From: Rhodospirillaceae bacterium BRH_c57
GTDB taxonomy: Bacteria; Pseudomonadota; Alphaproteobacteria; Rhodospirillales; Rhodospirillaceae
Direction of reading: 5' to 3'
DNA: 46,663 nucleotides
Assembly: GCA_000961745.1 (NCBI GenBank)
Contig: LAEA01000261.1
Span: 1 to 46,663 of the forward strand
Both the position numbers and the translations under genes were made by a program. Positions 20,517 through 38,039 of the stretch are shown piece by piece. Under the pieces are notes generated by a model that ran no database searches, had not been told where the DNA came from, and worked only from the letters and a program-made list of their open reading frames with translations. The stretch's first letter is position 1. Each line of letters starts with the position of its first letter.

Positions 20517-21356
20517 ATGCCTGAACTCCCCGAAGTCGAAACCGTGTGCAAGGGCCTGTCAGGTGTGCTGGAGGGCCGTCGGCTGGTCCATGTGGCGCTC
20601 CACCGGCCGGATCTGCGGGTGCCGTTTCCGGCCGGGTTTGCCGACCGCCTGACCGGGCGCATGGTCACGGCTGTGCGGCGGCGGGCCAAGTATTACCAGT
20701 GGTTGCTGGACGACGGCTGGGCGGTGGTCGGGCATCTGGGCATGTCGGGCACCTTCGAGGTGTCCCCGCCCGGATCGAATCGGCCGCCGCCGGGCAAGCA
20801 CGACCATGTGGTGATCGAGACCGATGCTGGGGCCATCGTCACGTTCCGCGACCCGCGCCGCTTCGGGCTGATGACCCTCATCCCCCAGGCCGAGCTGGAA
20901 ACCCACCCCATGTTGGCCGACATCGGGCCGGAGCCGCTCGACGACGTGTTCGACGGCGCCATGCTGGTTGCCGGGCTGGCCGGGCGGCGGGGGCCGATCA
21001 AGCCGGCCCTGCTGGACCAGAAGGTGGTTGCGGGCATCGGCAACATCTACGCCTGCGAGGCGCTGTTCCGGGCCGGGATCAGTCCGCGCCGGGGCTGCGA
21101 CTCGATCACCGGCAAGCGCGCCGCCCGGCTGGTCGCGGCCCTCAAGGCGGTGCTGTGCGAGGCGATCGCCAGCGGCGGGTCATCGTTGCGCGATCACCGC
21201 ACGGTCAATGGCGAACTCGGCTACTTCCAGCACAGTTTCGCCGTCTATGGGCGGGAAGGTGACCCCTGTCCCGGCTGCGATTGCCCCGGTGGAACCGTGC
21301 AGCGCATCGTACAGGCCGGGCGATCCACATTTTTCTGTGCCAAACGCCAGCGGTGA
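20517..21356 (+). CDS. mutM: Formamidopyrimidine-DNA glycosylase with altered zinc finger
   Basis: A 279-residue bifunctional base-excision enzyme removing 8-oxoguanine. MPELPEVETV supplies the catalytic N-terminal Pro and Glu, and the RRRAKYY stretch supplies the beta-hairpin Lys. The helix-two-turn-helix region and the VVAGIGNIYACEALF motif are intact. The C-terminal zinc finger normally has four Cys; here C251, C254 and C274 are present but the fourth position is R277 (codon CGC at 21345-21347). C256 lies nearby and might substitute. The gene otherwise looks intact. Confidence 0.94.
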   Translation: MPELPEVETVCKGLSGVLEGRRLVHVALHRPDLRVPFPAGFADRLTGRMVTAVRRRAKYYQWLLDDGWAVVGHLGMSGTFEVSPPGSNRPPPGKHDHVVIETDAGAIVTFRDPRRFGLMTLIPQAELETHPMLADIGPEPLDDVFDGAMLVAGLAGRRGPIKPALLDQKVVAGIGNIYACEALFRAGISPRRGCDSITGKRAARLVAALKAVLCEAIASGGSSLRDHRTVNGELGYFQHSFAVYGREGDPCPGCDCPGGTVQRIVQAGRSTFFCAKRQR

Positions 21357-21375
21357 TGGTGTACCGTCCGTGTCT

Positions 21376-21747
21376 ATGCGTGTGGTGTCCTCCATAGCCC
21401 TGGCGGGCATACTGGCGTTTTGTGTCGTTCCTCCGGCGGTGGCCGGGGGCGCGCCGGCTCAATTTTTGGCCGGTTTTGACGATCTGCCGCTGATGCCCGC
21501 CCTGACGCAGGACGTGGACAGGGTCACCGTGTTCGAAAGCCCCTATGGCCGCATTGCCGAGTCCACCGCGTCCGGCCGGACCACGCGCGCCGCTGTTCTT
21601 GCCTTTTACGGTGCCACCCTGCCGCAACTCGGCTGGGTCCGCGCCAGCGATACCCTGTTCCGTCGGGAAGGGGAGGAACTGACCCTGGACATCACCGACT
21701 CCGGTGGTGCTGTCACGGTCCGCTTCCTCGTCTCGCCTGACGGCTGA
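21376..21747 (+). CDS. Small secreted protein, unknown function
   Basis: A 123-residue protein with a signal peptide ([25 protein letters not shown], cleavage near residue 23). The mature part has a [11 protein letters not shown] strand and then [17 protein letters not shown], a helix pattern seen in several small periplasmic proteins. The rest is beta-rich. The start codon could be ATG 21376 or GTG 21370. It lies 19 bases after mutM and 37 before the enoyl-CoA hydratase gene, so it is probably co-transcribed. No function is assigned. Confidence 0.7.
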
Positions 21748-21784
21748 TCCTGTCCCCCATAAATCCATAAGGGAGCGTTCTTCC

Positions 21785-22561
21785 ATGCCCTACGAGCATA
21801 TTCTCGTGGAAACCCGCGGCAACGTTGGCCTCGTCACCCTGCACCGTCCCAAGGCCCTGAATGCCCTGTGCACGCCGCTCATCCGCGAGCTGGGGACGGC
21901 GCTGGACGCCTTCGAGGCCGACGACGACATCGGCGCCATCGTGCTCACCGGGTCGGAGAAGGCCTTCGCGGCCGGCGCCGACATCAAGGAAATGTCGGGC
22001 AAGTCCTACATGGACGTGTACCTCCAGGATTTCATCACCGACGGCTGGGAACGCGTCACCACCTGCCGCAAGCCGGTGATCGCGGCCGTGGCCGGCTACG
22101 CCCTGGGCGGCGGGTGCGAAATGTCGATGATGTGCGACTTCATCATCGCCGCCGACAACGCCCGATTCGGCCAGCCCGAGATTACCATCGGCACCATGCC
22201 GGGCGCCGGTGGCACCCAGCGCCTGACCCGCTATGTCGGCAAGTCCAAGGCCATGGAAATGTGCCTGACCGGCCGCCAGATGGATGCCGCCGAAGCCGAA
22301 CGGTCTGGTCTGGTCAGCCGCGTCGTGCCGTTGAGTGATCTGGTCGAGGACGCCGTCAAGACCGCCCAGCGCATCGCCAGCATGTCGCGCCCGGTGGTCA
22401 TGATGACCAAGGAATCGGTCAACCGCTCCTATGAAACCACCCTGACCGAGGGCATCCGTTTCGAACGCCGCGTGTTCCACTCCACATTCGCGACCGAGGA
22501 CCAGAAGGAAGGCATGGCGGCCTTCGTCGAGAAGCGTCAGCCCAACTTCAAGCACCGCTGA
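21785..22561 (+). CDS. Enoyl-CoA hydratase
   Basis: A 258-residue crotonase-fold protein. The oxyanion-hole segments are [10 protein letters not shown] and [17 protein letters not shown]; the two catalytic glutamates of hydratases are present (GGGCE and [19 protein letters not shown]). It probably hydrates short-chain 2-enoyl-CoA in beta-oxidation or amino-acid breakdown. AAGGGAG lies upstream of ATG 21785. The exact substrate is not readable from sequence. Confidence 0.92.
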
Positions 22562-22571
22562 GGCGGTCCCG

Positions 22572-22616
22572 GTCTTCTCCCGTGCCCGCCTTAGCAGTTC
22601 GCGCACGGGGGAAGAC
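22572..22616 (+). terminator. Hairpin after the enoyl-CoA hydratase gene
   Basis: GTCTTCTCCCGTGC (22572-22585) pairs with GCACGGGGGAAGAC (22603-22616) over 14 positions with one G-U pair. It lies just after the stop and before the rpsT promoter. It lacks a clear T-tract, so a terminator role is likely but not certain. Confidence 0.6.
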
Positions 22617-22627
22617 GCAAGAGTCGG

Positions 22628-22656
22628 TTGACGGCGGCAAGGTGTTTCCCTATAAG
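22628..22656 (+). promoter_or_regulatory. Sigma70-type promoter of rpsT
   Basis: TTGACG (22628-22633) and TATAAG (22651-22656) are separated by exactly 17 bases. They lie about 50 bases before the rpsT start. This is a near-consensus housekeeping promoter. Confidence 0.75.
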
Positions 22657-22707
22657 ACGCGCTTCGCCACGCGACCTTGATTTCAGTTTTTAACGGAACG
22701 AACAAAC

Positions 22708-22986
22708 ATGGCTCATCACAAGTCGGCCCAGACGCGCATCCGCCGCAATGCCCGCCGCTTCGCGATCAACCACGCGCGCAAGGGGCGTGTCCGCTCCTTC
22801 ATCAAGCGGGTCGAGGTGGCGATTTCTGCTGGCGATCAGTCCCTGGCGACGGACGCCTTCAAGGCGGCTCAGCCCGAGATGATGCGCGGCGTCCAGAAGG
22901 GCGTGTTCCACAAGAACACCATGTCCCGCAAGGTCTCTCGCCTGAATGCCCGCATCAAGGCGCTGGTCACTCAGGCCGCTGCCTAA
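22708..22986 (+). CDS. rpsT: 30S ribosomal protein S20
   Basis: A 92-residue, Lys/Arg-rich primary 16S rRNA-binding protein. [21 protein letters not shown] and [19 protein letters not shown] match S20. The gene lies directly upstream of dnaA, an arrangement seen in Caulobacter and other alphaproteobacteria. It has its own promoter and a hairpin terminator. Confidence 0.97.
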
Positions 22987-23673
22987 GGCACCATCGGAGA
23001 GCCGTCCGGCTCCCGAAACTGCCAGCACGTTCCCAGAAGGTCGCTGCCGCATCGGCGGCGGCCTTTGTGCTGCCTATGTTGATATCAAATCTTAAAGTGT
23101 ACCGTTCCCCATTCGGTCTTGTTGCCATGCCCCGGCATTAAGGTTAAATTCTTTGCTTGCTGCCGCTGGTGTGGTTGCGCCGGAATTGGAGCGCTCTAGG
23201 GCTTAATTGTACGGATGGTTCCTGATCGGATATTCCGTTTATTATTCCCGCGATTTGAATCGTTTTATTTGTTTTTGACTAATAATGCGGGGCTGCAAAG
23301 TTCCCGACTTCTTGATGCCATCTGCCCGCTTCCGGGCGATCGTCGATCGGGGCGGGCCAGTCTTGTTCCGGTTGGTGGCTGGTTTCGGTTGGGGCCTGTT
23401 CCGTTTGATGGCCCGTTCTGTTTGGTGGATCGGGTCGTACCGGCCAGGGCCGGATTATCGACAAAGTGCCTCTGGGCGGGGGCGGCGTCATGCGCCGCCT
23501 CGCAAGGGGATGTTTGCGTCCGGGATCCGGTTTTGCCGGGGCTTTGGGACGCCGCGGCCGGGTGGGACTCGGACGCGGACGGAAACTACGGCGACCCCGT
23601 TCCCGGGGCGCCAGTCTTGATGCGGTGGCGGGGCGTTGAACGCTCCGGGTCGGCGAGGGTGCGGAGCGTGGGT
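22987..23673. other. rpsT-dnaA intergenic region
   Basis: These 687 bases hold the rpsT terminator hairpin, an AT-rich stretch (about 23195-23290) that probably carries the dnaA promoter, and one near-match to a DnaA box (TTATCGACA, 23455-23463, one mismatch to TTATCCACA). The dnaA frame stays open through much of it, but the encoded sequence shows no resemblance to DnaA. A single weak box does not support calling this oriC. Confidence 0.5.
23037..23066 (+). terminator. Rho-independent terminator of rpsT
   Basis: AAGGTCGCTGCCG (23037-23049) pairs with CGGCGGCGGCCTT (23053-23065) over 13 positions, including two G-U pairs, around the loop CAT; TTT follows the stem with little further T-tract. 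A smaller hairpin, GAGCCG-TC-CGGCTC (22999-23012), precedes it. Confidence 0.65.
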
Positions 23674-25131
23674 ATGCACAACAGCAGGCGGTCGGACGAC
23701 CACTCCGTGGCGCAGTGGGAGCGGGTCCAAGGGCGACTCCGCGAAGAGTTCGGCGATGCCGCGTACTCAAGCTGGCTCAAGCCCATGACCCTGGGTGGGG
23801 TGGCCGACGGTCATGTCCGTCTGGCGGTGCCCACCCGATTCATGCGCGATTGGGTCCTGACCCACTACGCCGAGCGCATCCGCACCCTGTGGGCCGGTGA
23901 AGATCCGGCCGTGCGCGGCGTGGATGTGGTGGTCGACACGGCCAACGGCCGGGCCGCCCGTGCCGAGGCCGCCGAGGTGGCTGCCGAGGTGGCCGATGGA
24001 GTCGGTGGGGGCGCAGTCCACATTGGCCCCGAGTCGCACTACACCGGGGCCAGTGCCCCCATGGCGGCCTCCGTTGCTGCGGCCTCGGTCACGGCGGTCA
24101 CGGATGCCCTGTCGGCGCCGCTCGACCCGCGTTACACCTTTGAGAACTTCGTCACCGGCAAGCCCAACGAATTCGCTTATGCGGCCGCCCAGCGCGTTGC
24201 CGAATCCGAGCGCGTGGCGTTCAATCCGCTGTTCCTGTACGGCGGCGTGGGTCTGGGCAAGACCCACCTGATGCACGCCATCGCCGACTCGATCCGCAAG
24301 CGCCAGCCAGACCGCAAGGTGGTCTACCTGTCGGCCGAAAAGTTCATGTACAGCTTCGTCCGCGCCCTGCGCTACAAGGACACCATGGCCTTCAAGGAGC
24401 AGTTCCGCTCCGTTGACGTCCTGATGATCGACGACGTGCAGTTCATTTCGGGCAAGGACTCGACCCAGGAAGAGTTCTTCCACACCTTCAATGCGCTGGT
24501 TGACCAGGGCCGCCAGATCGTCATTTCGGCCGACAAAAGCCCGGCCGACCTCGAAGACATCGGCGACCGTCTGCGCTCGCGGCTGGCGTCGGGTCTGGTG
24601 GCCGATATCCATCCGACCACCTACGAACTGCGCCTCAGCATCCTGCAATCCAAGGCCGACCAGATGGGCCAGCAGGTGCCGGAAAAGGTGCTGGAGTTTC
24701 TGGCCCACAAGATCGCCACCAACGTCCGTGAACTCGAAGGCGCCCTGACGCGTCTGGTGGCCCACGCGCAACTGGTCGGCCGCGACCTGTCGCTGGAAAC
24801 CGCCCAGGACGTGCTGCGCGACGTGCTGCGCGCCCACGACCGCCGCGTCACCATCGAGGAAATCCAGAAGAAGGTGGCCGAGCATTTCCAGATCCGCGTC
24901 TCGGACATGCACTCGGCCCGCCGGTCGCGTTCCGTGGCCCGCCCGCGTCAGGTGGCCATGTACCTGTCCAAGCAGTTGACCTCGCGGTCGCTGCCCGAAA
25001 TCGGTCGCAAGTTTGGCGGCCGCGACCACACCACGGTCATGCACGCGGTCAAGAAGATCGAGGAGCTGATGGGCGAAGATCCGGCCTTCGGCGAGGACGT
25101 CGAACTGCTGCGCCGTATGCTCGAAAGCTGA
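23674..25131 (+). CDS. dnaA: Chromosomal replication initiator DnaA
   Basis: A 485-residue AAA+ initiator that binds DnaA boxes and opens oriC. Domain I starts WERVQGRLREEFGDAAYSSW. A variable Ala-rich linker spans about residues 90-150. Domain III has Walker A GGVGLGKTHLMHA (near 190), Walker B LMIDDVQFISGK (near 250) and the sensor regions. Domain IV carries the signature GGRDHTTVMHAVKKIE near 448. ATG 23674 has GGAG 7 bases upstream and gives a family-typical N-terminus; the frame is open 153 codons further but without homology. Confidence 0.96.
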   Translation: MHNSRRSDDHSVAQWERVQGRLREEFGDAAYSSWLKPMTLGGVADGHVRLAVPTRFMRDWVLTHYAERIRTLWAGEDPAVRGVDVVVDTANGRAARAEAAEVAAEVADGVGGGAVHIGPESHYTGASAPMAASVAAASVTAVTDALSAPLDPRYTFENFVTGKPNEFAYAAAQRVAESERVAFNPLFLYGGVGLGKTHLMHAIADSIRKRQPDRKVVYLSAEKFMYSFVRALRYKDTMAFKEQFRSVDVLMIDDVQFISGKDSTQEEFFHTFNALVDQGRQIVISADKSPADLEDIGDRLRSRLASGLVADIHPTTYELRLSILQSKADQMGQQVPEKVLEFLAHKIATNVRELEGALTRLVAHAQLVGRDLSLETAQDVLRDVLRAHDRRVTIEEIQKKVAEHFQIRVSDMHSARRSRSVARPRQVAMYLSKQLTSRSLPEIGRKFGGRDHTTVMHAVKKIEELMGEDPAFGEDVELLRRMLES

Positions 25132-28363: not shown

Positions 28364-29074
28364 CTACAACCCGATGTGGGTCTGCAACACCCCTGGATCG
28401 GCCTTCAACTCGGCGCTGGGGCCGTCGTAGACGACGCGGCCCTTGACCATGATGACGCTGCGGTCGGTCAGGTCGAGGAGGACCTTGACGTTCTTGTCCA
28501 CGATCACGGTGGCGATGCCGGTCGCCTTGATGGCGCGGATGACGTTCCAGATGTCGCGCCGGATGAGCGGGGCCAGCCCCTCGGTCGCCTCGTCGAGGAC
28601 CAGGACGTCGGGGTTGGTCAGTAGGGCGCGGCCGATGGACAGCATCTGCTGCTCGCCGCCCGACAGGTTGGTGCCCTGGTTGTCCAGGCGTTCGGCCAGA
28701 CGGGGGAAATAGTCCAGCACCCGTTCGGCGGTCCATTCGCGGCGGCCATCCGGGCCGGGGCGTTCGGCCATGATGAGGTGTTCGCGCACGCTCAGCCCGG
28801 CGAAGATGCCGCGTCCCTCGGGCACATAGGCGATGCCCTGGCGGGCGATGGCCGAGGGGTCGGCCCTGGTCATGTCGCGGCCACGCACCGTCACCGTGCC
28901 GCGCCTGGCCCGCGTCAGGCCCAGCAGGCTGCGCAGGGTGGTCGTCTTGCCCATGCCGTTGCGGCCCATCAGGCACACGGTTTCCCCGCGTCCGACGCGG
29001 AAATCCACGCCGTGCAGGATGTGGCTGGCGCCGTAGTAGGTGTGCAGGCCTACAGCATCAATAAGGGCTTCCAT
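28364..29074 (-). CDS. livF: Branched-chain amino-acid-type ABC transporter ATPase LivF
   Basis: A 236-residue ATP-binding subunit. It has Walker A MGRNGMGKTT, the signature LSGGEQQML, Walker B VLVLDEATEGLAP and the family THIGL end. ATG 29074 is chosen; it begins two bases after the livG stop with GAGG inside livG as ribosome site. It is the last gene of livKHMGF. Two ATPases (LivF, LivG) drive transport through LivH-LivM. Confidence 0.93.
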   Translation of the reverse strand: MEALIDAVGLHTYYGASHILHGVDFRVGRGETVCLMGRNGMGKTTTLRSLLGLTRARRGTVTVRGRDMTRADPSAIARQGIAYVPEGRGIFAGLSVREHLIMAERPGPDGRREWTAERVLDYFPRLAERLDNQGTNLSGGEQQMLSIGRALLTNPDVLVLDEATEGLAPLIRRDIWNVIRAIKATGIATVIVDKNVKVLLDLTDRSVIMVKGRVVYDGPSAELKADPGVLQTHIGL

Positions 29075-29076
29075 GT

Positions 29077-29898
29077 TCAATAGTCCTCGTCCCCGTCGCC
29101 GAGATAGGCGTCCTGCACGGCCTTGCTTTCGCGCACCTGCTCGACCGGGCCGCTTTCCAGCACCCGCCCGTTGACCATCACGGTCAGGGTGTGGGCGATG
29201 GAGAACACGGCATCCATGTCGTGCTCGACCAGCAGCACCGGATAGGTCTTGCGCAGTTCCAGCAGCAGGTCGACCACCTTTTCCGATTCCTCCGGCCCCA
29301 TGCCGGCCATCGGCTCGTCGAGCGCCAGGAACCGCGGCTTGGTGGCCAGCACCATGGCCAGTTCAAGCTGGCGTTGCTCGCCGTGGCTCATGGCGGCGGC
29401 CGGGGTGTGGGCACGGTCGGTCAGGCCGACCAGTTCGAGGGCCTCCTCGACCCGCTCGCGCACGGCCTTGTGGGTGTGGGCCGGGCGCAGGAACCGCATG
29501 GCGTGGGGCAGGGCGGTCTGCCCGGTCAGCCACACGTTTTCCCACACGGTCAGGGGCGCGAATACGTTGGTTTTCTGATAGCTGCGGCCGATGCCCAGGC
29601 GAGCCACCTTGTGGGCCGGCAGCCCGGCGATGTCGCGCCCGCCGAACAGGATGCGCCCGGCCGAGGGCTTGAGGTGGCCGGTCAGCAGGTTGACCAAAGT
29701 GGACTTGCCCGCCCCGTTGGGGCCGATCACCGCATGGGCCTCGCCAGCGTTGACGATCAGGTCCACGCGGGCGACGGCGGTCAGGCCGCCAAAGCTTTTG
29801 GTCAGGCCCTCGACGCGCATGACGGGTTCGGCGGCCGGGGGAGTGGCTTTGCTGGCGTGTTGCATCCGCCGGATATCAGCTTTCGCCACGGTCTTCAT
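29077..29898 (-). CDS. livG: Branched-chain amino-acid-type ABC transporter ATPase LivG
   Basis: A 273-residue ATP-binding subunit with Walker A GPNGAGKSTLVNLLTG, the variant signature MSHGEQRQLELA, Walker B FLALDEPMAGM and the switch His in EHDM. The GRSYQKTNVF stretch is typical of LivG. It has an N-terminal extension of about 30 residues before VEGLTKSFGG. ATG 29898 overlaps the livM end by 23 bases and has GAGGA upstream. Confidence 0.93.
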   Translation of the reverse strand: MKTVAKADIRRMQHASKATPPAAEPVMRVEGLTKSFGGLTAVARVDLIVNAGEAHAVIGPNGAGKSTLVNLLTGHLKPSAGRILFGGRDIAGLPAHKVARLGIGRSYQKTNVFAPLTVWENVWLTGQTALPHAMRFLRPAHTHKAVRERVEEALELVGLTDRAHTPAAAMSHGEQRQLELAMVLATKPRFLALDEPMAGMGPEESEKVVDLLLELRKTYPVLLVEHDMDAVFSIAHTLTVMVNGRVLESGPVEQVRESKAVQDAYLGDGDEDY

Positions 29899-30925
29899 GT
29901 CCAGTCCTCGCACGGTTCGCTCGCGGTGACGTCAGGCGCTCCAGCAGTCCGGCGATGCCCTTGGGCAGGGTCAGCACCATCACGATGATCAGGCCGCCCA
30001 GGACCAGCAGCCAATGCTCGGTCCGGGCCTCGATGACGGCGTGCAGGATCTCCAGGGCGAAGGCGCCCAGGATGGCGCCGTGCAGGGTGCCCAGGCCCCC
30101 CAGGATGACCATGACCAGCACGGTGCCCGAGTGGTGCCACGACATCATCGACGGGTTCACGAATCCGAACTGGGCGGCCGACAGGTATCCTGCAAGCCCG
30201 GCCAGCATGGCGCCGATGACAAAGGCCACCAGCTTGTAGGCGTCCGGGTTGTAGCCGACCCCGCGTACGCGCTGCGGATTGATGCCGATGCCGCGCAGCA
30301 CCTTGCCGAAGGGCGAGGCCAGCAGCACGCGCAGGAACACATAGGTTCCCATCATGGCGGCGAACACGACGTAGAAGAACGTCACCGCGTCACCCAGATC
30401 GACCAGTTTGAGCCCGAACACCTCGACCGCCGGGCGGACGTAGATGTAGGTGCCGTCCGACCCGCCGGCAAAGTCGGCGTCGTTGAACACGTAGTAGAAC
30501 ATCTGCCCGAAGGCCAAGGTGATCATGATGAAGTAGATGCCCCCGGTGCGGATGCTCAACGCCCCGATGACCAGGGCGGCGAGGCCGACCGCGCCCAGGG
30601 TCATGGGGAGGGTGGTCCACAGATTGGCGGCCTCGTACTCCGGGCCGAACAAAGCCAAAGCGTACCCGCCCAGACCAAAGAACGCGGCGTGCCCCAGGCT
30701 GACCATGCCGCCGATGCCGACCAGCAGGTCGAGGCTCATGGCCAGCATGGCGAGGATCATGATGGCGGTCAGCTTTTGCAGGAAATAGTCGTGCTGGCCG
30801 GGGAACAGCGCCTCGCCGTATAGCGGATAGAACGCCAGCACGGCGGCCAGGGCCAGCAACAGCAGGGCGAACCGGCTGGGCGCCTGCCACGCGGTGGAGG
30901 CGGTAAGGGGGGCGGCGGGTGTCAT
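29876..30925 (-). CDS. livM: ABC transporter permease LivM
   Basis: A 349-residue inner-membrane permease with about ten helices and the BPD_transp_2 core (GGMVSLGHAAFFGLGGYALAL, ALSIRTGGIYFIMITLAFGQM, GGLGTLHGAILGA). Two starts are possible: ATG 30925, with GGGAG about 12 bases before it, or ATG 30937, where the same site abuts the codon; I prefer 30925. It pairs with LivH to form the channel. Confidence 0.9.
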   Translation of the reverse strand: MTPAAPLTASTAWQAPSRFALLLLALAAVLAFYPLYGEALFPGQHDYFLQKLTAIMILAMLAMSLDLLVGIGGMVSLGHAAFFGLGGYALALFGPEYEAANLWTTLPMTLGAVGLAALVIGALSIRTGGIYFIMITLAFGQMFYYVFNDADFAGGSDGTYIYVRPAVEVFGLKLVDLGDAVTFFYVVFAAMMGTYVFLRVLLASPFGKVLRGIGINPQRVRGVGYNPDAYKLVAFVIGAMLAGLAGYLSAAQFGFVNPSMMSWHHSGTVLVMVILGGLGTLHGAILGAFALEILHAVIEARTEHWLLVLGGLIIVMVLTLPKGIAGLLERLTSPRANRARTGHEDRGES

Positions 30926-30942: not shown

Positions 30943-31809
30943 TTACGCCCGCGCGAACAGGCCGTTGGGCTTCCACAGCAGGACGGCGGCCATCAGGGCA
31001 TAGACCATCACGCTCGACATCTCGGGCAGCAGCACGCGGCCGAAGGTGTCGGTCAGGCCGATCGCCAGAGCACCCAGGAACGCGCCCTTGACCGATCCGA
31101 TGCCGCCGATCACCACCACCACGAAGCTGATGATGATGACGTTGTCGCCCATGCCCGGATAGACCGACGACAAGGGCGCCGCGATCATCCCGGCAAAGGC
31201 CGCCAACGCGGTTCCGGCCGCGAACACCAGGGCGTTGAGGCGGCGGATGTCGATGCCGAGACTCGCCGTCATCTCGCGGTTGGCGGCCCCGGCGCGGATC
31301 CACATACCCAGGCGGGTGCGCTGGATGATCCAGTACATGGCAAAGGCCAGGGCCAGACAGACGCCGGCCAGAACGAGGCGATAGACCGGATAGGACAGTG
31401 TGTCGGTCAGGGGGATCGACGCCGCCACCATCGACGGCACGGCCACGCCATGCACGTCGGACCCGAACATCATGCGTTGCACCTCGTTCAGCACCAGGAT
31501 CAGGCCGTAGGTCAGCAGCACTTGGTCGAGGTGGTCGCGGTTGTACAGGTGGATGACCAGGAACCGCTCGATCACCCAACCCAACGCGGCGGCGCACACG
31601 ATGCCGGCCAGGATGGCGACCACGAAGCTGTCGAACACGCCGGTCAGCGACCACACCAGATAGGCCCCAACCATATAGAACGCGCCGTGCGCCAGATTGA
31701 TGACGTGCATGATGCCAAAGATCAGCGTCAGCCCGCTGGCGATCAGGAACAGCAGCAGGCCGTACTGGACCCCGTTAAGGGCCTGGATCAGGAAGAAGGT
31801 GAAATCCAT
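30943..31809 (-). CDS. livH: ABC transporter permease LivH
   Basis: A 288-residue inner-membrane permease with seven to eight helices. IFGIMHVINLAHGAFYMVGAY near the N-terminus and VVVIGGIGSVKGAFLGALAIG near the C-terminus are LivH family signatures. It follows livK and precedes livM in the operon. Confidence 0.93.
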   Translation of the reverse strand: MDFTFFLIQALNGVQYGLLLFLIASGLTLIFGIMHVINLAHGAFYMVGAYLVWSLTGVFDSFVVAILAGIVCAAALGWVIERFLVIHLYNRDHLDQVLLTYGLILVLNEVQRMMFGSDVHGVAVPSMVAASIPLTDTLSYPVYRLVLAGVCLALAFAMYWIIQRTRLGMWIRAGAANREMTASLGIDIRRLNALVFAAGTALAAFAGMIAAPLSSVYPGMGDNVIIISFVVVVIGGIGSVKGAFLGALAIGLTDTFGRVLLPEMSSVMVYALMAAVLLWKPNGLFARA

Positions 31810-31881: not shown

Positions 31882-33078
31882 TTAGTTGCCGGCCATCTTG
31901 CAGCCGGTGGCGGGATCATTCAATGCCTTGGCGGCGATGCCGACCACCACGTTCTGGCCGTCGCGGACCTCGCGCAGGTAGATGTCCTGCACCGGGTTGT
32001 GGGCGGCCGAGATGGTGAAGTCGCCGCGCGGGCTGTCGATGGTGGCGCCTTCCATGGCCTTTATCAGGTCGTCCTTGCGCGTCAGGTCGCCGCCCACGGC
32101 GTCCAGGCCGGCGCGGAACAACTGGGCGGTGTCATAGCCCTGAACGGCGTAGATGTCGGCCTCCTTACCGAACTTCGCCTTGTAGGCCGCGCGGAAGGCC
32201 TTGTCCTTGGGGTCGTCCAGGCCATCGGCGTAGTGCAGGGTGGTCAGGATGCCTTCGGCGTCGGCGCCCTGGGCCTGCAAGGTACCATCGGTCAAAAAGC
32301 CCGAACCGAGCAGCGGAACGGAGTCCTTGAGACCGGCCGCCGCGTAATCCTTGACGAACTTCACGGCTCCGCCCCCGGCAAAGAACACGAACACGGCGTC
32401 GGGCTTGAGGGAGGCGATCTCGGTCAGGTTGGCCTGGAACTCGACGTTGGGGAACGGCACATAGATTTCCTGCACGATCTTGCCGCCGCGCTTGGTGAAG
32501 CCCTCCTTGAACCCGGCCACGGCCTCTTCGCCGGCGCCATACTTCCAGGTCATGGTGACGACGTTGCGATACCCCTTGTCATAGGCCACGTCGCCCATGG
32601 GATAGGCCGGCTGCCAGTTGGTGAAGGACGTGCGGAAGACGTTCTCCGAACACAGTTGCCCGGTCGCCGGACCGGCCCCGGCGTTGGGGATGATCATCAG
32701 GGTGCCGCTGTCCTTGACCGCCCGTACCATGCCCATGGCCACGCCGGAATGGACCGTGCCGACCAGCAGATCGACGTTCTCGCCCTTGATCATCTTGTTG
32801 GCGTTCTGCACGGCCTTGCCGGGATCCGACTCATCGTCCAGCTTCACGGTGGCGATGTCGCGCCCGCCAAGCTTGCCGCCGGACTCCTCGACGGCCAGGT
32901 TGAAGCCGTTGGTGATGGCCTCGCCCAGCGCCGCGTAGGTGCCGGAATAGGGCAGCATCAGCCCGACCTTGACGGGGTCGGCGGCGGTCGCGGGGCTCAT
33001 CAGGCCCAGCCCGACGCCAAAGGCCATAGCGGCCTTGATCGCCGCGTGGCGGCTGAACGAAGTCTTGAACGTGGTCAT
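31882..33078 (-). CDS. livK: Periplasmic substrate-binding protein (LivK-type)
   Basis: A 398-residue type I periplasmic binding protein. The signal peptide (MAFGVGLGLMSPATAADP) is cut near residue 33, and the mature part begins VKVGLMLPYSGTYAALG. DAVFVFFAGGGAVKFVKDY and GILTTLHYADGLDD are typical of the subgroup that often binds aromatic acids rather than leucine, but this is a loose impression. GGAGGAG lies 5 bases before ATG 33078. TGCA-type palindromes upstream hint at an aromatic-acid-responsive repressor. Gene type is certain, ligand uncertain. Confidence 0.9.
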   Translation of the reverse strand: MTTFKTSFSRHAAIKAAMAFGVGLGLMSPATAADPVKVGLMLPYSGTYAALGEAITNGFNLAVEESGGKLGGRDIATVKLDDESDPGKAVQNANKMIKGENVDLLVGTVHSGVAMGMVRAVKDSGTLMIIPNAGAGPATGQLCSENVFRTSFTNWQPAYPMGDVAYDKGYRNVVTMTWKYGAGEEAVAGFKEGFTKRGGKIVQEIYVPFPNVEFQANLTEIASLKPDAVFVFFAGGGAVKFVKDYAAAGLKDSVPLLGSGFLTDGTLQAQGADAEGILTTLHYADGLDDPKDKAFRAAYKAKFGKEADIYAVQGYDTAQLFRAGLDAVGGDLTRKDDLIKAMEGATIDSPRGDFTISAAHNPVQDIYLREVRDGQNVVVGIAAKALNDPATGCKMAGN

Positions 33079-33127
33079 GGATGCTCCTCCCAGTGCATTA
33101 TCAGGTCCGTGTTCGGCTTTTATCTTT

Positions 33128-33141
33128 TGCACTATAGTGCA
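33128..33141. promoter_or_regulatory. Perfect palindrome TGCACTATAGTGCA before livK
   Basis: A 14-base perfect palindrome of the form TGCA-N6-TGCA, centred about 56 bases before the livK start. On the minus strand a TTGTAA/TATGCT promoter candidate with 18-base spacing lies just upstream of it, so a bound protein would block transcription. Direct TGCA repeats inside palindromes are described for BzdR/BoxR benzoyl-CoA-responsive repressors. Confidence 0.6.
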
Positions 33142-33213
33142 TGTTGGTCGAGCATACGCCACTCGGCACTCCCCTTACAACACGCTAAAACCCCCTCAAT
33201 TCTTAGGGTATAA

Positions 33214-33227
33214 GGCACTATATTGCA
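33214..33227. promoter_or_regulatory. Second copy of the palindromic site (GGCACTATATTGCA)
   Basis: It differs from the 33128-33141 site at two of fourteen positions and keeps the CACTATA centre. The centres of the two sites are 86 bases apart. It lies 154 bases before accA and 136 before livK. A lone TGCA at 33094-33097 may be a third half-site. Confidence 0.5.
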
Positions 33228-33381
33228 TGTCGTGGTGCCCTAAAGCGCACAATGGGAAACCCGCACGGGGCTCGTTCGTTCAATCCGTCCATCCGGGGGC
33301 CTCGCGCTGTCACGTTCCTGTCGCGCCGCGCCGGGGGGTGTGTTAGACCTTGGTTCTCCTTTGACTACTGCCACGGATCCC

Positions 33382-34335
33382 ATGAACTTTCTGGATTTCG
33401 AAAAGCCGATCGCCGAGCTTGAAGGCAAGATCGAAGACCTCCGCCACATGGGCGACGGCGATGGCCTGAACATCGCCGAGGAGGTTGCGCGCCTTCAGAC
33501 CAAGGTCGAGAAGCGCCTGCGCGAGATCTACTCCAAGCTCACCCCCTGGCAGAAGACCCAGGTGGCGCGCCATCCTGATCGCCCGCACTGCCTGGGCTAC
33601 GTCGCGGCGCTGGTGGAGGATTTCCAGCCGCTGGCCGGCGACCGTGGCTTTGCCGAGGACGCCGCCGTCATCGGCGGCATCGGGCGGTTCCGGGGCCGCT
33701 CGGTCATGGTGATCGGCCAGGAAAAGGGCCACGACACCGAAAGCCGGGTGAAGCACAACTTCGGCATGGCCAAGCCCGAGGGCTACCGCAAGGCCCGCCG
33801 GCTGATGGAAATGGCCGACCGCTTCGGCCTGCCCATCGTCACGCTGGTTGACACGGCCGGCGCCTATCCCGGTGTCGGGGCCGAGGAACGCGGTCAGGCC
33901 GAGGCCATCGCGCGGTCCATCGAAACCTGCCTGAACGTCCGGGTGCCGCTGGTTTCCGTGATTATCGGCGAAGGCGGATCGGGCGGCGCCATCGCGCTGG
34001 CCACCGGCAACGTCGTGATGATGCTGGAACACAGCGTGTATTCCGTGATCTCGCCGGAAGGCTGCGCCTCCATCCTGTGGCGCTCGGGCGAGCAGGCCCA
34101 GGCGGCGGCCGAGGCCCTCAAGCTGACCGCCCAGGACCTCAAGCGTCTCGCGGTCATCGACGAAATCATCGCCGAACCCCTGGGCGGCGCCCACCGCGCT
34201 CCCGACGTCGCCATGAAGGACGTTGCCGACGCCATCGACCGCCACTTGCACGACTTGGTCCGCCTGGACCCCGGCGTGCTGCGCGCCCGGCGCCGCGACA
34301 AGTTCCTGGCCATGGGGCGGCAGGGCATCGAGTAG
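33382..34335 (+). CDS. accA: Acetyl-CoA carboxylase carboxyltransferase alpha subunit
   Basis: A 317-residue subunit that with AccD transfers the carboxyl group to acetyl-CoA, the first step of fatty-acid synthesis. It has [17 protein letters not shown] at the start, [30 protein letters not shown] and the oxyanion-forming [12 protein letters not shown]. It is divergent from livK across a 303-base gap with the palindromic sites. accD is not in the window. Confidence 0.96.
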
Positions 34336-34353: not shown

Positions 34354-34728
34354 TTACGTTCCGGCCAGCACCTGACGCAGGGCGTCCTCCAGTTGGTTCG
34401 GCAGGATTGGCTTGATGAGCAGGGCGCTGGCGTGGTCCTGGGAAATGCGCTCGCGCATCTCCGGCTCGTTGGACCCCGTGATGAAAATGATCAGTGGCGC
34501 GCCCTCGCCGTGCATGGTGAGGGCGGCATCGACGCCGTCACCGCGCCCGCGCAAGCGAACATCCATCAGAACCACTTTCGGCCGTTCGCGGCGCGCGATC
34601 TCCACGGCCAGCGTGGCGTTGTCCGCCACGCCGCAGACGACATAGCCGAGATCCTCGACCGTCAGTTTCAGGGACTGCGCGATCAGCGCGTCATCCTCGA
34701 CGATCAGGATGGTGCAATCATCAGGCAT
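34354..34728 (-). CDS. Single-domain response regulator
   Basis: A 124-residue receiver domain with no output domain. The acidic pocket is E11-D12-D13, the phospho-acceptor is D56 in VLMDVRL, the switch Thr is in FITGS and the Lys is in LLIKP. Its start overlaps the end of the histidine kinase gene by 8 bases, so the pair is translationally coupled. In HWE/HisKA_2 systems such lone receivers often act as partner or phosphate sink. Confidence 0.9.
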   Translation of the reverse strand: MPDDCTILIVEDDALIAQSLKLTVEDLGYVVCGVADNATLAVEIARRERPKVVLMDVRLRGRGDGVDAALTMHGEGAPLIIFITGSNEPEMRERISQDHASALLIKPILPNQLEDALRQVLAGT

Positions 34729-36427
34729 CGAGCATTTCCTTTTCCAACGGTATCGACAGTTCGCACCGGGTGCCGTGGTCGGAACGCACCGTCATTGTGG
34801 CGCGAAGCTGTTGAGCCAGGGCCTCGATGATGCGGCTGCCAACGGAGCCTGTCGTTGCCACGCCCGCATCATAGCCCACGCCATTATCGGTTACGCTGAC
34901 TATCATGTGTAGATCCTCGCGCCGGGCCTGCACGAGGATCGTCCCCCGCTGGCCGTTTGGGAAGGCGTGGCGGAAGGCGTTGGCGATCAGTTCATTGATC
35001 AGCAACCCAAGTGGAATGACGCTGCCGAGGTCCACGGTCATTGGCTCGGCCTCGACGCGCAACTCAATACCGCGCGCGGTGGCCCCAACGGAACAGGCGA
35101 TCGCCGCGCACAGGTCCTTCAGGAATGATTGCAGGCTGAAGGACTCCAGGTCGGCCGCCTGAATGAGTTGCTGGTGGACCATGCCCAGGGCGTTGATGCG
35201 AAGCCGCATATCGGCCAGGGCGCGGCGGGCCTCTTCGGTCGCCATGCCACGGATTTGTAGGGCGATCAGGGCATCGACCTGTTGCAGGTTGTTTTTCACC
35301 CGGTGATAGACCTCGCGCAGCAGCAGGTTGCGCTCCACGACCGTCCGTTCGAGGCTGATGTTGGCGGCGGTGAGGCTTGCCGTGCGCTCCCGGACGCGGT
35401 CTTCCAGGGTGGTGCGGGCCTCGCGCAGTTGGACCTCCATGGCGCGCTGGCGGCGCAAGGCCCGCAGGCCGATCACGGCCAGCAACATGCCCGCTGCGGT
35501 CACGGCGGCGCCGGCCAGCCCGCTCTGTATGGCGCGGGCACGCCAGCCAGCCATGGCGGCCGTGGTGGTGCGGCTGGCCAGAACGACCAGCGGGTATCCG
35601 GGAACCAGCCGCCGTGCCACGATCCTCTTGTTCCCATCGACAGGCGACAGGGTGACCGTGACGACAACGGGTGTATGGGGGCCAAGACCTTCCTCCGGCG
35701 GCGGTGCGCGCGTGCCGATGATGTTGTCAGGCAGGGGTTCGCGGACCAGAAGGGCGCCGTCGCGGCGCAGGATGGCAATCGACCCGCCGCTGCCCAATCC
35801 CAGACCCTGGTAGAACGACTGGAAATAATCGGTGTGGATGGATGCCACGACAATCCCCCGGAACGTCCCGTCCGGCCCACGCAGTACTCGTGAAATGCTG
35901 AAAAATCTCCGCCCCGTGTGGCGGTCGTTCATGAGTTCGCCGATAAACGGGCCGTTGCCTGTCTGGCTGGCGGCATGGGCGTGGAAATAGTCGCGGTCGG
36001 CAAAGGTGCCGCCGACCGACTCGCGCTGGAGGGACGAGGCGACCACGGTGCCGGTGGCATCCATCACCCTCAGCGAGCCAAGCTGGGGCAGTCCCTCTCC
36101 CAGCTCCTGAAGGTCGCGGTACAGGGCCTTTGAGCCGTGCAGAGCCTGGAGATCCCGCTCCCCGAGATGGTCGATGAGGCGCTGCAGGACGAGATCGCTG
36201 TTCTCGATGGTACGGTGCGCGTGTTCTCGCAACAGGCCGGTCAGACGGCTGAGTTCCGCCTGTGTGTCGCGGATGGTGCGCGCATTGTCGGCGGCGATGA
36301 AAGCCACCCAGCCACCGACCGCCGCCGTAATCAACAGGCCCGCCAGTATCAGAAGAACGGCCGTAGGGGCTTTGCTGGGCGGTGCAAGGCGCGCACCGAC
36401 GTTTTCCGACGGTTCGATGGGCGTCAT
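34721..36427 (-). CDS. Membrane sensor histidine kinase (HisKA_2 type)
   Basis: A 568-residue kinase. TM1 is at residues 22-43; an extracytoplasmic double-Cache-like sensor of about 250 residues follows (VGGTFADRDYFHAHAA, RRFFSISRVLRG); TM2 is near 299-320. A coiled region leads to the HisKA_2 phospho-acceptor H375 (EVYHRVKNNLQQV) and an ATPase domain with NELIANAFRHAF and DNGVGYD. The type is common in alphaproteobacteria. ATG 36427 with GGAG upstream is preferred. The ligand is unknown. Confidence 0.9.
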   Translation of the reverse strand: MTPIEPSENVGARLAPPSKAPTAVLLILAGLLITAAVGGWVAFIAADNARTIRDTQAELSRLTGLLREHAHRTIENSDLVLQRLIDHLGERDLQALHGSKALYRDLQELGEGLPQLGSLRVMDATGTVVASSLQRESVGGTFADRDYFHAHAASQTGNGPFIGELMNDRHTGRRFFSISRVLRGPDGTFRGIVVASIHTDYFQSFYQGLGLGSGGSIAILRRDGALLVREPLPDNIIGTRAPPPEEGLGPHTPVVVTVTLSPVDGNKRIVARRLVPGYPLVVLASRTTTAAMAGWRARAIQSGLAGAAVTAAGMLLAVIGLRALRRQRAMEVQLREARTTLEDRVRERTASLTAANISLERTVVERNLLLREVYHRVKNNLQQVDALIALQIRGMATEEARRALADMRLRINALGMVHQQLIQAADLESFSLQSFLKDLCAAIACSVGATARGIELRVEAEPMTVDLGSVIPLGLLINELIANAFRHAFPNGQRGTILVQARREDLHMIVSVTDNGVGYDAGVATTGSVGSRIIEALAQQLRATMTVRSDHGTRCELSIPLEKEMLDA

Positions 36428-36526
36428 GGGAGACTCCGGGGGGCACGCGTTAAACACCAACGCCCGCCAGCAGGGGGAGGATGCTCCCACCTGCCTATCC
36501 CGGCCCCCCCCTTGGGGGGCTTGGCC

Positions 36527-37315: not shown

Positions 37316-37339
37316 CTTCCCAGTGGCCTTCCCAGTGGC
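37316..37339. repeat. 12-bp tandem duplication upstream of the Crp/Fnr gene
   Basis: CTTCCCAGTGGC occurs twice head to tail, 32 bases before the regulator start. It may be a binding site or a chance duplication. Confidence 0.8.
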
Positions 37340-37370
37340 GTTTGGGATGGCAGCGGGGCACACTGGCGCC

Positions 37371-38039
37371 ATGAAAAACGATCTGACCACCATCTTTCCA
37401 GCCCTTGCGGCCCTCGAACCGGCCGCGCGGCGGGTCCTTGACGAGGGGGTGCGGCCGGTTACCGTGCCGCCGGGCACCACTGTCTTTGCCGATGGCAGCG
37501 CCTGCGAGGCGTTCCTGTTGGTGCTTGATGGCAGCGTGCGGGTCCAGAAAGTGGCCGAGAACGGGCGCGAGATCGTGCTGTACCGCGTGGAGCCCGGCCA
37601 GACCTGTGTGCTGACCACCACCTGCCTGCTCAGCCAGGGCATCTATGGGGCCGAGGGGGTGACGGAAACGCCGGTGCGTGGCCTCGCCCTCGCCCCGCGC
37701 GCCTTTCAATCGCTGATGGCGACATCGGACGTGTTCCGTCGATTTGTCTTCGGGGCCTATGCGACACGGGTGTCGGACCTGTTGATGCTGATCGAGGAAG
37801 TGGCGTTCGGCCGCATCGACCAGCGCCTCGCCGCACTGCTGCTGGAAAAGGCGGGGGCGGGTGACGCGGTTGCCGCCACCCACCAGGATTTGGCCGTGGA
37901 ACTGGGCTCGGCCCGCGAGGTGATCTCCCGCCAGCTCAAGGATTTCGAGCGCCGGGGGCTGGTCGTGCTGGGCCGGGGGCGGGTGTCGCTGACCGCGCGC
38001 GGAGGGCTGGAAAAGCTGGCGCGGCCTTTGGTGATCTAG
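37371..38039 (+). CDS. Crp/Fnr-family regulator without FNR cluster
   Basis: A 222-residue regulator: a cyclic-nucleotide-binding-like domain (SVRVQKVAENGREIVLYRVEPGQ) followed by a helix-turn-helix (HQDLAVELGSAREVISRQLKDFERRG) with recognition residues REVISR. The N-terminal FNR cysteine set is missing, but two Cys lie in GQTCVLTTTCLL, a pattern seen in Crp/Fnr regulators next to DUF2892 or rhodanese genes. ATG 37371 is preferred over the in-frame ATGs at 37335 and 37347, which overlap the tandem repeat region. It probably controls the DUF2892 gene downstream. Confidence 0.87.
   Translation: MKNDLTTIFPALAALEPAARRVLDEGVRPVTVPPGTTVFADGSACEAFLLVLDGSVRVQKVAENGREIVLYRVEPGQTCVLTTTCLLSQGIYGAEGVTETPVRGLALAPRAFQSLMATSDVFRRFVFGAYATRVSDLLMLIEEVAFGRIDQRLAALLLEKAGAGDAVAATHQDLAVELGSAREVISRQLKDFERRGLVVLGRGRVSLTARGGLEKLARPLVI

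Follow-up and report, generated by a model that had tools for sequence, protein, structure and literature searches.

The livKHMGF operon of a Rhodospirillaceae bacterium as a probable BoxR-controlled benzoate importer located away from the box genes

The analysed stretch of DNA (the window) comprises the 46,663 nucleotides of contig LAEA01000261.1 of Rhodospirillaceae bacterium BRH_c57 and contains on its minus strand the ABC importer operon livKHMGF. The first gene of the operon, livK (31882..33078), encodes a 398 aa periplasmic binding protein of the RPA0668/HbaE type with predicted benzoate binding and is followed by the genes for the permease subunits, livH (30943..31809) and livM (29876..30925; 349 aa from the ATG at 30925), and for the ATP-binding subunits, livG (29077..29913; start codon uncertain) and livF (28364..29080). 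The divergent neighbour of livK on the plus strand is accA (33382..34335), which presumably does not belong to the regulon described below. Near accA a PhyK-type dCache histidine kinase (34721-36490) and a CRP/FNR-family regulator (37323-38039) are encoded, and the genes fpg and dnaA together with an enoyl-CoA hydratase gene are situated a few kb from the liv operon (20517-25131), in what is possibly a replication-origin-side region.

The gap between livK and accA carries two palindromes, which are located about 50–150 bp from the livK start. The proximal putative BoxR operator, TGCACTATAGTGCA, is a perfect 14-bp palindrome at positions 33128-33141, while the distal one, GGCACTATATTGCA, occupies positions 33214-33227 and is identical to the former at 12 of 14 positions; neither is assigned to a strand, and their starts are separated by 86 bp, or about 8 helical turns. 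Thus the perfect palindrome and the diverged second copy 86 bases apart that were described in the original prediction are both confirmed by the sequence. The prediction also assigned the TGCA palindromes to the operator type of BzdR/BoxR, for which the motif ATGCACTATAGTGCAT was derived from 32 Betaproteobacteria with sites that are almost always multiple (PMC6449761). Both properties agree with the published ones, since the proximal site matches 15 of the 16 consensus positions (over 33127-33142), the distal site matches 14 of 16 (over 33213-33228), and two sites are present at livK. The bare TGCA-N6-TGCA pattern by itself proves nothing, because it is expected about once per window by chance (0.84 expected, 1 found). 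The lone TGCA noticed nearer to livK does exist at position 33094, but is indistinguishable from chance, and it was left out of the operator count along with a 3-mismatch match at 33236. The reading of GGCACTATATTGCA as a sigma-54 promoter was dropped because the spacing is one base short.

A candidate sigma-70 promoter of livK can be tentatively drawn on the minus strand as TTGTAA (33180-33175), a spacer of 18 and TATGCT (33156-33151). The proposal that one of the sites is situated just downstream of such a promoter holds with respect to position; the promoter itself, however, is weak, with 8 of 12 matches, and no livK promoter was found by a stricter consensus promoter scan. If this weak promoter is right, transcription would start at the proximal palindrome, and the distal palindrome would lie near −76.

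The genome to which the window belongs (G000; 3.9 Mb in 274 contigs, a draft that is 82% complete) was scanned by pattern searches with the 14-mer and the 16-mer ATGCACTATAGTGCAT. Nine places were found at ≤3 mismatches to the 16-mer, and six of them form three pairs, which are located only at livK (spacing of 86 bp), at boxC on contig C149 (85 bp), and in the gap between boxR and bcl (158 bp). In this way the search finds the operator at box promoters, where a site was expected if aromatic catabolism is involved. In 20 genomes simulated with the size and first-order composition of G000 the 16-mer gave a mean of 2.8 places at ≤3 mismatches and 0.2 at ≤2, none of these genomes contained a pair of sites within 200 bp, and the letter-reversed ATGCACTATAGTGCAT used as a control was found at 1 place in G000. 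A single TGCA-N6-TGCA in the window is at chance level, while the specific sequence and the pairing at livK are not due to chance. The three unpaired places, C28:35300 at a start codon, C87:1476 at a gene end, and C239:2930 downstream of a gene, were not taken as operators, because their count fits the chance value of 2.8 and an aromatic context is absent. A promoter duplication as the origin of the livK and boxC arrangement is unsupported, since alignment of both promoters shows likeness at the operators only.

As originally noted, the window carries no BoxR/BzdR gene; the genome search revealed a single-copy boxR on another contig, C149. Its product combines an N-terminal XRE helix-turn-helix (HTH_3) with a C-terminal shikimate-kinase-like (SKI) domain and is 39–51% identical to BoxR from other box clusters, with conservation of the helix-turn-helix and of the GLRGAGK P-loop. 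On C149 boxR adjoins the box/bcl genes, whose products, benzoate-CoA ligase (TIGR02262), BoxC (TIGR03222), BoxB (TIGR03225), and BoxA (TIGR03224), each score above the curated NCBIfam cut-off. In the G000 draft BoxD was not confidently found, with only distant aldehyde dehydrogenases below cut-off, and no match to the anaerobic benzoyl-CoA reductase was obtained. The third pair of sites (C149:8904-8919 and C149:9062-9077, or L008:4905 and 5063) is more degenerate and is located between boxR and the operon of a DUF4863-like gene and benzoate-CoA ligase, which suggests boxR autoregulation. The tetranucleotide signatures of C149 and the window agree at 0.935, and with this common composition a binning error is unlikely. 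Judging by the distances to the contig ends, some 14 kb or more separate livKHMGF from the box cluster.

The best structural match of LivK is 4evq/4evr with 411 bits, as compared with 39 bits for the E. coli Leu/Ile/Val-binding protein; the bit scores of E. coli leucine-type proteins are roughly tenfold smaller. These structures are presumably those of RPA0668 (HbaE) of Rhodopseudomonas palustris with benzoate-type ligands, and LivK is 54% identical to this protein. For RPA0668, benzoate binding was accompanied by a thermal shift of 17 degrees (PMC3223731). In a quick tree, which was read for grouping only, LivK falls among alphaproteobacterial relatives and RPA0668, and a set of 7 rows with RPA0668 has 98% support. 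The proposed comparison of LivK with binding proteins of aromatic ligands consequently places it with benzoate-binding and not with leucine-binding proteins.

The surroundings of livK were further surveyed in the loci of its 80 closest named homologues, where box genes adjoin livK in 49. The motif was present at 46 of these 49 box-linked loci versus 3 of the 31 others (Fisher p 6e-15 with kinship ignored; some of the 31 non-box loci are short contigs). The three exceptions, L062:6036, L077:7612, and L098:6555, all belong to Burkholderiales, have the site upstream of livK and BoxR elsewhere in the genome, and the sites of L062 and L077 merge into a hexamer, TTGACA, that precedes livK. In a sample of the order a close LivK was found in 22 of 27 genomes with BoxR versus 32 of 270 without it, many of them being from one genus.

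In the genome of the same family with the closest LivK (G001), livKHMGF lies inside the box cluster after boxCBA, and immediately before livK there is again a separate pair of divergent sites (L115:13663 and 13727). These two and the sites L115:8643 and 8726 of the same genome appear to follow a variant, TGCACTATACTTCCA, which perhaps matches the 51%-identical BoxR of this organism. The sequence ATGCACTATACTTCAT at C28:35300-35315 (L104:1501) in G000, which overlaps the initiation codon of a gene for a protein of 158 aa whose N-terminus resembles a signal peptide, is similar to these divergent sites, and such a single match could be due to chance.

In the related genus g63 LivK and BoxR are on different contigs or >1 Mb apart in 12 of 12 sampled genomes with both genes, and no BoxR site was detected at ≤5 mismatches within 700 bp upstream of livK in these 12 genomes, while near-perfect sites occur near boxR in many of the BoxR-bearing genomes of this genus. 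Hence an importer that is unlinked from boxR is not always under BoxR control. A comparison of the gene order around accA in four relatives did not date the move of the importer. The importer of the window has either kept or gained its clean operator pair. The chances are about even that BoxR acts here in trans on an importer whose operators were kept after it left the box cluster and that, with the seemingly independent cases in L062, L077, and L098, this represents a repeated route of regulon evolution.

According to these data livKHMGF is very probably a BoxR-controlled importer of benzoate or of a closely related compound such as 4-hydroxybenzoate, derepressed by benzoyl-CoA and located away from the box genes. 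On sequence grounds the original proposal that this “branched-chain amino acid” transporter imports benzoate or a related aromatic acid is thus supported by the BoxR gene, the sites at box promoters, and the homology of LivK. BoxR encoded on C149 would bind the two livK palindromes as dimers and repress the operon, and the distance of 86 bp would suit cooperative binding with looping; by analogy with BzdR the start region would be covered by the proximal dimer, with the other dimer about eight helical turns upstream. Benzoyl-CoA is the effector of both BoxR and BzdR (PMC4424350). Incoming benzoate, once converted by the ligase to benzoyl-CoA, would release BoxR, so that expression of the importer and of the box pathway may rise together in a positive feedback on uptake.

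It is less likely, though it deserves some weight, that the BoxR operators are real and the main substrate is another aromatic acid, for example, 4-hydroxybenzoate or a benzaldehyde-type compound, given that 4-hydroxybenzoate, salicylate, and benzaldehyde are further ligands of RPA0668 (PMC3223731) and that BoxR senses the CoA thioester rather than the imported acid. Against this, only benzoate-CoA ligase and boxCBA were found as an aromatic pathway beside BoxR, and most relatives have the same importer within box clusters. Much less probable is an unrelated regulator of, for example, the NtrC type, with which the BoxR likeness would be coincidental and the importer would serve for amino acids or urea: the half-sites of NtrC, GCAC and GTGC, do resemble those at livK, and generic family models label the subunits as urea or branched-chain amino-acid transporters, but NtrC sites have a longer spacer than that found here, the same pairs otherwise occur only at box promoters, all scores of the operon proteins against the Liv and Urt (urea) models are below the curated cut-offs, and LivK is nearest to a benzoate-binding protein. 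That the sites mainly serve the divergent accA and tie benzoate to fatty-acid synthesis, with livK as a bystander, is highly improbable, since despite their position in the shared gap about 155–250 bp before accA they are closer to livK, the proximal one extends into the probable livK start region, and the pair of G001 precedes livK where accA is absent.

As a benzoate importer under BoxR control, this stand-alone operon with clean operators would make uptake testable without disturbing the catabolic pathway. It also indicates that the operator sequence together with the genome context can correct “branched-chain amino acid transporter” labels.

In comparison with known systems, the locus is most similar to the betaproteobacterial BoxR/BzdR regulon of Suvorova and Gelfand (2019; PMC6449761) in its operator sequence, multiple sites several helical turns apart, BoxR architecture, and box/bcl targets, as well as in a putative benzoate ABC transporter, which is included in most BoxR regulons. 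In that study, however, the BoxR-regulated genes are all in divergent clusters and the regulon is betaproteobacterial, whereas here the importer stands apart next to accA and possesses an operator pair of its own, and its LivK clusters with those of Rhodospirillaceae (Alphaproteobacteria). For importers of this kind, control by BoxR has already been predicted in Betaproteobacteria, and the unlinked position is the distinctive feature of the present case. The PN promoter of Azoarcus sp. CIB under BzdR (PMC6678401) also has TGCA-N6-TGCA palindromes, with several operators located both around the start site and further upstream, and the looping by several BzdR dimers reported there can be likened to the arrangement proposed for livK, whose proximal and distal sites would tentatively be comparable to OR1 and OR2 if the weak promoter is right; it differs in that an FNR-type activator site accompanies three operator regions there, while at livK two sites are recognised and the target is an importer. 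Finally, HbaEFGHI/RPA0668 of R. palustris (PMC3223731) provides the closest solved binding protein, which binds benzoate and belongs to the same kind of ABC importer operon, but it is located between the anaerobic bad and hba operons, whereas the operon described here, with 54% identity in its binding protein, is associated with BoxR-type sites and the aerobic box pathway.
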